Positions 46,087-49,758 of a stretch of 50,167 bases of DNA are shown here, piece by piece (positions within the stretch are counted from its first letter, which is position 1; every line of letters starts with the position of its first letter). The DNA lies in assembly GCA_015063235.1 (NCBI GenBank), contig SUSW01000010.1, forward strand, positions 1-50,167, written 5' to 3'. The DNA comes from Thermoplasmata archaeon. Lineage in GTDB: Archaea > Thermoplasmatota > Thermoplasmata > Methanomassiliicoccales > Methanomethylophilaceae. Under the pieces are notes generated by a model. That model made no database searches. It saw only the letters and a list, made by a program, of their open reading frames with translations, and was not told where the DNA came from. Made by a program: the position numbers and the translations under genes.

Positions 46087-47361
46087 TTACGTGTTAACAT
46101 TGGATTTTAAGTTTCCGATATAGCCTGTAAATAAATCAACTCCATGTTGATTCTCCGATATTGTGAATATGAACGGAATGTCGCAATGGAAGTCGATTAC
46201 AGGATCGATGTTCAGTACCGAAGTGTTCTTAATCACAATTTCCGTGATCGCCGCAGCTTCCGTGCCTGTTTCATCTACTTTGAGTTTGGCCTGATGCTTG
46301 CCATCAGTAATCTTTAGGCAGTCGCCGTTGATGATTCTGGTGAACTCTGCCGCGTCAGACATCGAGACGCTCAATCCCAGCGAGGTGAACAGTTCTTTCA
46401 GATCATAGGATGTATCAACATCCAGTTTCGGGATGATAACGTTCAGGCGCATCGAATCCGGTGAGCCGGTACGGACATTTTCAATGAACTGTTCTCTGTA
46501 TTCGGCGGACTCGGAGGACCATTTGCTCTTGATGTCAGTGCCCCCGTCTGCGGGTAGGATGAAGATCATCGAGACGCTATCGCCACCATCGGATTCGTAA
46601 GGTAAAGCTATCCCTCTGTATTTGCCATCAGTGTGATAGCCGATAGCACCGGAGCTGAACGTCCTTTGCATCATCGACACATCCGATCTGGTGCCGTCGG
46701 AACATCTGAACTTTCCGGTGAACGTGTTCTCGAATTCGAATACCCATTGGCCTTTGAAGTAAACCACGTTGAGTACATCTGTCAATGTTGAACTGTCCAG
46801 TATTGATCTGTAATCGGGTATGAAGCCACAGGTGCTGTTGCTGACCCACTCTCTGATCATCTCCTTCACGTTATCCGTGCCGTCCTTTATATCTGCTGTC
46901 TGGACGGAGCCTTTGAACATCTTCTCTATGGTTTCGGAGAAGGGTGTGTTTATCGTTCTTCCGGAGACATAGGTCTTGTCCACTAGTATCAGGTTTGAGG
47001 AGCTGAATCTGTATTTACTGTCCGCCTTCAGAGAGTCCAGAATCTTCACGATATCGGAATTCACCGTATTGCAGCCTTCTTTATGGAGGACGTCGAGCAG
47101 TTCTCTTTCGGTCATGGATCCGGGTTCCGCTCCGTTGAGGAGCATCGCCAGAGCGGTGTACAGTCCGAGGGGCGAATAGAATATCTCGTCTTCCTTCAGA
47201 CCGTCGAAAACATCCCATGAGAATGAATTGACTGTCATGGGTTCGTTCGTTTCCATGCTAGTGACCTCTTTATCAGCCTCACCGACTGGTGTCATTATGA
47301 GTGCAGCGGATGCTATAGCAGCGCATGCTAACAATACCATCAGCAGATGAGATGCCTTCAT
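46087..47361 (-). CDS. Secreted serpin (serine/cysteine protease inhibitor)
   Basis: 424 residues with an N-terminal signal peptide (about 1-20). The serpin core is complete: FYSPLGLYTALAMLLNGAEP, VVYFKGQWVFEF, the hinge KVDETGTEAAAIT and the C-terminal HCDIPFIFTISE. Counting from the hinge Glu (P17), the scissile P1-P1' would be Thr-Ser (in KNTSVLN), which suggests a target with a small-residue pocket such as elastase- or subtilisin-like proteases; that is a prediction. Serpins act by an irreversible conformational trap. In a secreted protein of a gut-associated archaeon it probably protects against host or bacterial proteases. A TATA-like CTAATATAGC (about 47384-47393) supports ATG 47361. 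Confidence 0.93.
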   Translation of the reverse strand: MKASHLLMVLLACAAIASAALIMTPVGEADKEVTSMETNEPMTVNSFSWDVFDGLKEDEIFYSPLGLYTALAMLLNGAEPGSMTERELLDVLHKEGCNTVNSDIVKILDSLKADSKYRFSSSNLILVDKTYVSGRTINTPFSETIEKMFKGSVQTADIKDGTDNVKEMIREWVSNSTCGFIPDYRSILDSSTLTDVLNVVYFKGQWVFEFENTFTGKFRCSDGTRSDVSMMQRTFSSGAIGYHTDGKYRGIALPYESDGGDSVSMIFILPADGGTDIKSKWSSESAEYREQFIENVRTGSPDSMRLNVIIPKLDVDTSYDLKELFTSLGLSVSMSDAAEFTRIINGDCLKITDGKHQAKLKVDETGTEAAAITEIVIKNTSVLNIDPVIDFHCDIPFIFTISENQHGVDLFTGYIGNLKSNVNT

Positions 47362-47434
47362 AACGGTAGGATATCGCTTTATGCTATATTAGGGTAAAAG
47401 ACGGTCTGTCAGGTTTGTTGAAAATCCGAAACTC

Positions 47435-47458
47435 GGAAAGGGCCAGCCGGCCCTTTCC
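47435..47458 (-). terminator. Hairpin after the amber-containing gene
   Basis: GGAAAGGGCC (47435-47444), AGCC, GGCCCTTTCC (47449-47458): ten perfect pairs, directly past the TGA at 47466. Its position after this TGA rather than after the TAG at 47742-47744 fits the view that the 3' part belongs to the gene. Confidence 0.7.
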
Positions 47459-47465
47459 TCGAGGT

Positions 47466-48629
47466 TCAGTGTTTTTTCACGATTACCACCAGTACAACGA
47501 TGATGATCACAGCGAATATGGCGAGTATCACAATTATGGGTACAAGGAATGACATGAAGAGGTCGATGATCGTCTTCTCGACGACCTCGGCCATGACTTC
47601 GCCGAATTCCTGTTCTGCATCATGGTAGCCCTTCGACACAGTCACATTTCCGCTGGAGGCAGGGATGTTATTAATCGCATTCTTGTATTCCTTGAGGTTC
47701 ACGTCGCTGTTCTGCCAGATGTCCGCCGTGGTCTCTTCCGACTAGGAATCCACGCCTTGGAACTTCACAGGATATTCTTTACCGTCGACGATATATTTCG
47801 CAGAACCCGATTCGAAGCTGAATGAGGATGCACCGTGGTTGATCCTGCAAGGGCTGGTCGGTGTGAGGTCAGAGTACTTCGCACCCTTGTAGTCGAAATC
47901 GATATTATCGACCATCATGAACTTGATGTTGGAGACGAACTGTATTGATTTGCCATCAGTTTCTCCTGCTTTGGACAGCTCAATCTTCACATCCATTTTC
48001 TGGACGCAGTACAGGGTCTCGCATCCTTCATCTTTGACGCTGTGGGAGCTATCGACGGCGGCGTAGGAATACGAAGAAGTGTATGCAGTCTTCTGGTTCA
48101 CTTTACCGGTTACAATGATTCTGTCGCCTTCGCTGACCTTGTCTCCCAGATAGGCTTTGATCGCAGCGGCCGCCTGCTGATAATAGGTGCTGCTCTGCTC
48201 GATGAGGGGGTTGATAAGGTCGCCGTCCGAGCTCACGGTGTATGTGTTCCTGAGACCTTCAGTAGCTATCTCTGTGGTGCCCAAGGCGCCGGTTTCTTCT
48301 GACTCTATCGTGTGGCCGTTAGAAACAATCGCCGAGAACAATACTGTCTCCATCTCAGGCTTGCCGAGCAGAAACACATTGAATACCTTGGTGAACATCT
48401 CCGATGCCGACTCGATTTCATTCATTTTGTTTATGTCGTATTTTTCGAGTTCAGATTCGGTAGGGTTGTCAGCTTTGATTACAAATCCCGCTTCATCTTT
48501 TGAGAATGAGGCATCCATATCCGCTGTTATCAGTGTCGGAGAGATTAGCATTAGGGATGCGATCAGCGTTGCTGCAATCGCCAATGATGCGCGGCGGGAC
48601 CGTATCCTTGCCCTGTTGCAAGCGATCAT
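47466..48629 (-). CDS. Secreted, C-terminally anchored protein with in-frame UAG (possible pyrrolysine)
   Basis: A 295-codon frame from ATG 48629 reaches TAG at 47742-47744; the same frame stays open for 92 more codons to TGA at 47466. Full protein: 387 residues including the amber position (296). Order: signal peptide (about 12-37), soluble outer domain, then TAG, then SEETTADIWQNSDVNLKEYK, a NIPASSGNVTVSKGY segment and a C-terminal transmembrane helix with basic end (VIVKKH). The paralogous fragment at 49312-49758 covers the same junction without interruption and has Glu (GAA) at the TAG site, so the part after TAG belongs to the ancestral gene. TAG is used as stop by none of 47 gene ends here. 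Either UAG is read as pyrrolysine or a recent Glu-to-stop change removed the anchor. TATA-like CTTAAATATC near 48648-48657 supports the start. Function unknown. Confidence 0.75.
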
Positions 48630-48869
48630 GCGTTTGGAATCGATTTGGTGATATTTAAGAGGCGGATTATCGTACGTTTTGGTGAATTGTCTCCAACTGC
48701 ATTCAATGCCGATTAGAACCTTTGGATGATTTGCTCATCTTTGTAGCGTTGAGTTTAGTGTTTTTTTATAGTTCAAAAATAGATGCTATCGCGTTCCAGT
48801 TCGTTCCCACAATGAGGTCCGTTCGAGAAACTCGGTAGGGTAGGGCCAGGAAGCGTATGAGGTAATCAT

Positions 48870-49325
48870 ATGAGTGATTTTGACAGGTTGTGCAAAGAAG
48901 TTGAGTCGCTGAATCCCGTTCAGTATACTGATGTTCTCAGAGCTAAATCAGCAAAGGTTATGATTGCACTTTCAGCCATCACAAAAGATGGGCTCAGCGG
49001 AGCTGAGATCTTCATAGGATTTGTTCTAGGGGCAGTTATGGCTGACAGGAAGTTTGATGAGTCAGAGTTCAGCCTCATCCGTCCTACACTCGAGGCAGCA
49101 GTCGGACGTGAAGTAACTTATGAGGAGGTAAAGGTTATATTCAGGGAGGCCAAGAAGGATGCCAAGGACAACGAAGTCATCCTCGCTGCGATGGTCGGAG
49201 CAATCGGAGAACTTTCTGAAGAACTCAAGGAAGATATCATAATCATCACACTTCTAATCTGTGCTGTAGATGGAAAGATTTCATTCAACGAGAAGAGATA
49301 CATCAAGAAACTCATGGAGAGCTGA
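48870..49325 (+). CDS. TerB-like protein
   Basis: 151 residues, all helical, with two acidic helix-turn elements: MADRKFDESEFSLI and CAVDGKISFNEKRYIKKLM. These match the TerB/tellurite-resistance fold in which paired Asp/Glu bind metal. A GAGGT ribosome-binding site (about 48858-48863) precedes the ATG. TerB proteins associate with membrane stress and tellurite-resistance modules, but no other ter gene is present. The preceding 220 nt (48652-48869) hold no gene that I can support. Its last codons overlap the end of the relic on the other strand. Confidence 0.8.
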   Translation: MSDFDRLCKEVESLNPVQYTDVLRAKSAKVMIALSAITKDGLSGAEIFIGFVLGAVMADRKFDESEFSLIRPTLEAAVGREVTYEEVKVIFREAKKDAKDNEVILAAMVGAIGELSEELKEDIIIITLLICAVDGKISFNEKRYIKKLMES

Positions 49326-49758
49326 CAACCAATAATACAGGCTGGCCTAGCCGGTCTACTTCCTCTTTTTTTTCATAAGTCTTGTCGACCGTTACGTTAA
49401 TGTTTGAGCCCGGAATATTGTTCACCTTATTTTGGAGGAGAATGACATATTCTGCGACTTCTGTTTCGTTCATGATGTATGTTATGCTTTTCTTGGATTC
49501 GGCTTCGCTGGTAACGGGTTTGATGGCATATTCCTTACTGTCGACAATGAATTTGGTACTGCCCTCCACGAAGTGGTTCTTCAAAGGACCGATCTTCTCA
49601 GTGCATGGGCTGGAGGGGGTGAGGTCTGAATATTTCGTTTCTCCGTAGTCGTATTCTGTTTTTACTTCCTTCATCAACTGGAGGTTGGTTTTAAAATCGA
49701 TGGTCTTGCCAACTGTGTTTCCTAATACTTCGATCGTATCTGTTTTACTGAAAAAAAG
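49312..49758 (-). pseudogene. Truncated paralogue of the amber-containing surface protein
   Basis: The open frame from 49758 to TGA at 49312 (148 residues) aligns with the central part of the protein at 47466-48629: VGKTIDFKTNLQLMK versus DGKSIQFVSNIKFMM, KYSDLTPSSPC versus KYSDLTPTSPC, then KFIVDSKEYAIKP versus KYIVDGKEYPVKF, and NKVNNIPGSNINVTVDKTYE versus NAINNIPASSGNVTVSKGYH. The N-terminal half with the signal peptide is missing (an in-frame TAG at 49759-49761 and TAA further up close the frame), and the C-terminal membrane anchor is missing: the frame runs into the end of the TerB-like gene. It is best read as a gene relic. ATG 49677 is a possible but unconvincing start. Confidence 0.75.

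Follow-up and report, generated by a model that had tools for sequence, protein, structure and literature searches.

Does a UAG codon within the gene of a probably exported archaeal protein end translation, or is it read through as pyrrolysine? This question is raised by a gene of a gut-type methanogen in the window, by which we mean the whole stretch of 50,167 nucleotides analyzed here, corresponding to contig C3 of a draft genome of 1.78 Mb (54 contigs, 87% estimated completeness). The gene begins with ATG, ends with TGA and counts 387 codons in one frame, among them one in-frame TAG (Table 1). The original prediction had described the frame as open on both sides of the TAG and had placed downstream of it a membrane anchor, a segment in common with a nearby relic and a strong hairpin, and our analysis recovered each of these elements. 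None of 200 shuffled sequences was as stable as the hairpin, which is possibly a transcription terminator. It did not figure in the list of a simple terminator scan, which is of the sigma-70/terminator type and uninformative for an archaeon. When four homologues were inspected by eye, TATA-like elements similar to that of the window gene were seen 27 to 30 nt upstream in three of them (G034, G091a, and G091b) and were not evident in G091c.

Table 1. Features of the window gene and its surroundings, in positions of the window
Feature	Position	Strand	Evidence or remark
TATA-like element TTAAATAT	48651..48658	-	starts 29 nt upstream of the ATG; read by eye
Full reading frame	47466..48629	-	387 residues if the TAG counts as one residue, then TGA; homologues uninterrupted
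Signal-peptide-like N-terminal region, residues 1-37 (putative)	48519..48629	-	hydropathy window of 2.18 from residue 16
In-frame TAG, putative pyrrolysine codon	47742..47744	-	codon 296; aligned with sense codons in homologues
Ectodomain portion 3' of the TAG, residues 297-364	47538..47741	-	alignments; family motif V331, K333, Y335 invariant
C-terminal transmembrane anchor, residues 365-383	47481..47537	-	19-residue hydropathy window of 3.96 at residue 365
Strong hairpin covering and following the distal TGA	47426..47469	-	-27.2 kcal/mol, z -4.0
Paralogue relic, both ends missing, without anchor	49312..49758	-	42% identity over query residues 220-340

The topology of the 387-residue product suggests that the protein is probably secreted and held by a C-terminal anchor; a surface or adhesive role, read from this topology, is only a guess. 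A hydrophobic C terminus was also found in four homologues by hydropathy scan and in the G092 homologue by eye. Ending the protein at codon 295 would remove, together with the anchor, about 68 ectodomain residues that contain the conserved motif. Scans against Pfam found no family in the part before the TAG and only two matches below cut-off in the part after it, to TMEM154 (E 0.00084) and to RIFIN; the TMEM154 match, under the curated cut-off, was rejected as a membrane-helix match. The NCBIfam scan of the protein found no family either, and according to both databases the protein does not belong to the methylamine methyltransferase families (MtmB, MtbB, MttB). An AlphaFold2 model, for which the window protein was aligned with the window relic, had a mean pLDDT of 40.7, which was too poor for a fold search, so the latter was dropped.

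Pyrrolysine is the conserved catalytic residue of the methylamine enzymes MtmB and MttB, and archaea in which all TAG codons stand for pyrrolysine were reportedly described in 2025. The original prediction had named the pyl genes as a check, and pylT, pylS, pylB, pylC, and pylD were all found in the source genome. The tRNA-Pyl gene pylT has the anticodon CTA, PylS scored above its curated cut-off and PylB above cut-off, and PylD was recognized by its N-terminal Pfam domain, PylD_N. For PylC, the score of 149.8 bits comes from a 227-aa fragment alone, covering the first 142 of 374 model positions, and stands against a cut-off of 248.3 meant for the full protein; the full ORF measures 469 aa. 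The closest PylS sequences in named records, at 93%, are those of Thermoplasmata archaeon SIG3 and Methanomassiliicoccaceae archaeon Tb.RUG.29, followed at 85 to 88% by those of Candidatus Methanomethylophilaceae from roe deer and sheep stomach. The NFACT gene of the window contig is 93% identical to that of G009, a genome of the same genus, and thus the contig fits the genus and the bin.

We then asked how the source genome uses TAG. The window was said to hold no TAG terminator, and our count agrees: its 47 ORFs of at least 60 aa end in 39 TGA, 7 TAA, and 1 TAG, the latter being that of the window gene. As one TGA call (47466-47702) is an internal GTG fragment of this same gene, 45 other ends remain, some of them maybe spurious, without a single TAG. 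We extended the count to a sample of 347,032 bases (19.5% of the genome), composed of the window and 16 stretches of contigs C16, C47, C52, C39, C29, and C40. This sample is not random, since it was chosen for earlier hits and includes the pyl/mtm contig, so pyl and mtm genes are over-represented; ORFs of at least 60 aa were called by our own codon-score method, and some are spurious. The sample contains 296 ORF ends, namely, 250 TGA (one of them the internal fragment of the window gene), 34 TAA, and 12 TAG. Nine of the 12 TAG ends run on for 91 to 488 codons in coding-like frames, and these correspond to two mtmB genes, one mttB gene, the window gene, and five other genes that do not encode methyltransferases. 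The remaining three are followed by 7-codon or noncoding extensions, which leaves at most 3 true TAG terminators among 296 ends, so that TAG hardly ever truly ends a gene in the sample, in support of the original prediction.

Two family members without a detected pylS use TAG differently. TAG ends 20 of 88 genes in G081 (108 kb) and 9 of 91 genes in G087 (120 kb), versus 9 of 274 genes in the source genome in the same comparison, where 8 of the 9 run on. G081 and G087 each have one TAG end followed by 25 open, coding-like codons, with a nearby start codon present both times. Among source-genome genes of at least 100 aa, the frame runs on as coding sequence, with no start codon within the 12 codons that come next, after 5 of 9 TAG ends versus 2 of 265 TAA or TGA ends (Fisher p 2e-7), a contrast to which the methyltransferases contribute. 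Leaving these enzymes aside, a TAG interrupts six sampled genes, and no gene has a convincing TAA or TGA interruption (p 0.02-0.036, given mutational opportunity); when two weak TGA candidates are counted, p becomes 0.18-0.26. Together, these results show TAG behaving, in the sampled fifth of the genome, like an infrequent sense codon that appears in ordinary genes at sites that vary.

To place the window gene in its family, we searched for homologues. Among 102 family genomes, five homologues are open over their whole length, one in G034, three in G091, and one in G092, the closest being that of G034 (38% identity by protein search). For G092, the protein search covers only residues 11-287 and the profile search covers 15-384. 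The original prediction had named two joint signs that would speak against decoding, a sense codon at the site in relatives and a degraded 3' sequence in this strain. The first was found in all five homologues, which have Lys (AAG) in G034, Pro in the three G091 copies, and Asp in G092 at the TAG position; the second was not, as frameshifts, extra stops, and loss of codon bias were looked for 3' of the TAG and are absent from the window gene. A profile search over 147 genomes of the order turned up one more homologue, a partial one in G091 (C120, positions 16-271, E 1.6e-11), and its other matches were only short, weak, or confined to a terminal segment. Elsewhere in the genus, the protein search gave no match at E 0.001 or better in any of the 30 genomes; the profile search gave a short N-terminal match in G011 (positions 11-66, E 1.6e-4) and one in G025 (E 0.0096), both taken as signal-peptide similarity rather than family membership. 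A match on contig C29 was rejected from its translation, which we take to be that of a signal-peptidase-like protein. No close relative carrying the window gene was found in a scan of GTDB 220 contigs, which may omit the same or a very near genome, or in viral contigs. The family is small and patchy across the Methanomassiliicoccales.

A pylS gene was found in 75 of the 102 family genomes. G034 is listed without a pylS match, and G091 and G092 lack one by subtraction (they are among seven unlisted genomes); these three genomes are 84 to 93% complete, so the absence of pylS is not certain. All five homologues thus lie in genomes without detected pylS, and none of them tests tolerance of the TAG. 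As the protein search of the 30 other genomes of the genus gave no match at E 0.001 or better, no close pyl-positive relative offers a codon to set beside the TAG.

Codon usage is normal in the 91 codons downstream of the TAG. Compared with 784 real coding windows of 91 codons (median of coding windows, 0.26), their codon score of 0.288 per codon falls at the 61st percentile, and it exceeds that of all 3920 wrong-frame windows. Identity before and after the TAG is 36/38% for G034, 28/27%, 24/24%, and 25/26% for the G091 copies, and 21/16% for G092, i.e., about equal on both sides in four of the five homologues. At alignment columns with a residue common to at least three of four homologues, the window protein has this residue in 51 of 81 cases upstream of the TAG and in 14 of 24 downstream; for columns common to all four, the figures are 20 of 26 and 4 of 7, respectively, too few to separate. 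Besides the G092 homologue, a weaker match after the TAG was seen only with the window relic (42% of 85 positions before, 29% of 59 after), which has a gap at the TAG position and a codon score of 0.033 per codon. A second relic, at L036 (C40) 646-1276 on the minus strand, is broken into pieces in different frames and scores 0.062. Two relics of the window family have thus decayed in the source genome.

The original prediction considered a secreted anchored protein to be an unusual site for a pyrrolysine codon. This found no support in the sample, where six of the nine TAG-containing genes do not encode methyltransferases, nor in published relatives, for which 16 non-methyltransferase proteins of this kind are predicted (PMC4153887) and 46 amber genes, one of them adhesin-like, are reported (PMC5011839). 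In our sample, matches to the MtmB (two genes) and MTTB families in Pfam and NCBIfam span their TAGs and served as positive controls. One of the other genes encodes a PRK13795-like PAPS-reductase/ferredoxin protein (L033:6857-8857, plus strand; C39:26857-28857). The model match spans the TAG (residues 25-657 of 667), under the equivalog cut-off, and identity to G009 is 83% before the TAG and 80% after. The genus has 30 other genomes, and 28 of them contain a long orthologue-like match (at least 62% identity), G021 and G024 having only paralogue-like ones. In the 27 relatives that were aligned (L071, whose locus starts near a contig end, was excluded), the TAG site is always occupied by a sense codon, and these codons are varied, the commonest being TCC (7) and AAG (5). 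The G028 copy of this gene has a TAG near its aligned start, and the paralogue match in G013 has two TAGs.

Four further genes outside the methyltransferases carry an in-frame TAG. In a TerB-domain gene, TerB_N overlaps the TAG and a TerB_C match below cut-off follows it. A BspA-type leucine-rich-repeat gene (L024:349-2901, minus strand; C16:60349-62901; 851 residues) has its TAG at codon 446, inside the repeats, with BspA repeats on both sides. A TPR-like gene is 48% identical to its G009 counterpart over the whole length, and none of 17 aligned relatives has a stop at the TAG site; two more of the 19 fetched, L091 and L097, were excluded, their loci starting near contig ends. The last ~135 residues of the TPR-like gene may be a separate gene, since a TGA stands near residue 400 in several relatives. 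The fifth gene, without a family match, has one relative (G009, 36%), whose frame passes the site uninterrupted and has TAC there. The gene with a TAG at C16:57194 was first taken as mtbB; as Pfam and NCBIfam gave no such match, it was counted as a non-methyltransferase gene. Two observations come from other genomes: a TPR-like homologue at G015:C76:11787-13364 (L089) has three TAGs and two TGAs in frame and is either decayed or multi-amber, and an NFACT-family gene at G029:C45:3044-4978, with a full-length match, has one internal TAG, a possible pyrrolysine codon. Altogether, TAGs come up at varying positions in functional-looking genes, as Borrel and colleagues argued for 'Ca. M. alvus' (PMC4153887).

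The pyl cassette, the TAG ends that run on, the continuous homologues, the normal codon score, and the promoter- and terminator-like elements favor decoding, and we consider it likely that the UAG of the window gene is read as pyrrolysine, yielding the anchored protein of 387 residues. Signals in cis are not obligatory for UAG recoding according to Borrel and colleagues (PMC4153887), and in E. coli no cis element was found or required for it (PMC8211752). We infer that the gene is expressed, that pyrrolysine is inserted at residue 296, and that it is tolerated there. The gene product would be a secreted protein held in the membrane by its C-terminal anchor. A lineage-specific point mutation may have turned a sense codon into TAG in a hydrophilic, poorly conserved stretch, and tRNA-Pyl would decode it in an organism that has the pyl cassette and has almost dropped TAG as a terminator. 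The normal product would then be the same protein as in relatives, with pyrrolysine at position 296, and the 295-residue form would be a minor by-product of termination. Such a change from sense to TAG could be near-neutral, and since the position is variable among homologues, pyrrolysine at residue 296 is probably not functional. Counting against decoding are the decay of the two family relics, the lack of a match to the window gene at E 0.001 or better in the 30 other genomes of the genus, the weaker match of the G092 homologue and of the window relic after the TAG, the non-random sample, and the fact that not every member of the order uses TAG sparingly, as the example of M. luminyensis shows (PMC4153887).

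The first two of these points would also fit a recent nonsense pseudogene, in which the TAG inactivates a gene that looks dispensable, as the search of the rest of the genus did not find it, and the 3' part has not yet decayed. We regard this as unlikely. Post-TAG codon usage is normal, and identity matches that of the pre-TAG part in four of five homologues; if the window gene is dead, its death was probably recent. In neutral simulations, 91 codons stayed free of stops and indels with p=0.16 at 0.05 substitutions per site, and free of stops with p=0.42 at 0.1 substitutions per site when indels were ignored, which leaves room for a young pseudogene; with 0.1 indel per substitution assumed, the probability of an intact frame fell to 0.057 at 0.08 substitutions per site. 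Moreover, the TAG, if translated, would still be decoded in the source genome, and the excess of TAG over TAA and TGA interruptions described above, which weakens when the two weak TGA candidates are counted, argues against random inactivation.

The original prediction proposed that readthrough would decide whether the protein is anchored or released. A regulated switch of this kind, with the anchored form made when pyrrolysine is plentiful through methylamine supply and the 295-residue form released when it is scarce, appears very improbable to us. Its appeal lies in the geometry, the codon preceding the only C-terminal anchor, and in a pyrrolysine supply that could in principle vary. However, a stop at the site was seen in none of the five homologues, each of which has a hydrophobic C terminus, and the cut would take away the motif-bearing ectodomain residues together with the anchor. 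RNA structure at the TAG is not unusual, its stability lying within that of the shuffles (z 0.77). The other sampled TAGs lie in genes to which no such logic applies, a PAPS-reductase-type enzyme for example, and stand at positions that vary among relatives, as drift predicts. We hold it equally improbable that a nutritional UAG switch between an anchored and a shed surface protein would involve an exported pyrrolysine residue acting outside the cell. Finally, a sequencing or assembly error is conceivable in an incomplete draft in 54 contigs, and we give it the least weight of all, as the convincing interruptions of the sample are all TAG and not the mix of stops that random errors would give.

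In-frame ambers outside the methyltransferases have precedents in this order, to which the window gene adds (PMC4153887, PMC5011839). For 'Ca. Methanomethylophilus alvus', 16 non-methyltransferase pyrrolysine proteins were predicted, TAG makes up 1.6% of stops, and the authors argue that, in a genome of this kind, an in-frame amber is a stable mutation (PMC4153887). The source genome resembles it in belonging to the same order, in its complete pyl cassette and rare TAG terminators (1.6% there, at most 3 of 296 here), and in having in-frame TAGs in unrelated genes, half of them with amber-free homologues (PMC4153887). It differs in that the 16 proteins, as named in the published table, include several hypothetical proteins and one transporter but no secreted, C-terminally anchored protein (PMC4153887), and in that searches of the 30 other genomes of the source genus did not find the window family. 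M. luminyensis, in contrast, is pyl-positive with ~11% TAG stops, and no non-methyltransferase pyrrolysine protein is predicted for it (PMC4153887). In the rumen strain ISO4-H5, 46 genes have an in-frame amber, one of them adhesin-like (PMC5011839). As in the source genome, the amber thus reaches a probable surface protein gene besides enzymes and hypothetical proteins; the adhesin-like gene is, by its description, a close precedent (PMC5011839).

The window gene would share with MtmB and MttB, represented by two mtmB genes and one mttB gene in the sample, the readthrough of UAG as pyrrolysine, and unlike them it has its TAG at a position that varies among homologues. The titles and abstract openings that we searched contained no description of an exported, anchored pyrrolysine protein. 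If decoded as we propose, the window gene, with its intact flanks and its homologues, would be a well-supported case of an exported protein whose gene uses UAG simply as a sense codon, and by itself it shows no new mechanism. An annotation halting at TAG would shorten the window protein, with loss of its anchor, as well as several other proteins of the genome.

The neighbors of the window gene were also inspected. Directly downstream lies a serpin gene (46087-47361, minus strand; Pfam Serpin, E 4e-64) with a signal-peptide-like start, and a search of the source genome with this serpin gave no second match. Between the window gene and the relic, a small TerB-like protein is encoded at 48870-49325 on the plus strand, with a Pfam match just under cut-off (E 1.4e-4); the TerB-domain gene of the source genome that carries an in-frame TAG is a separate one.
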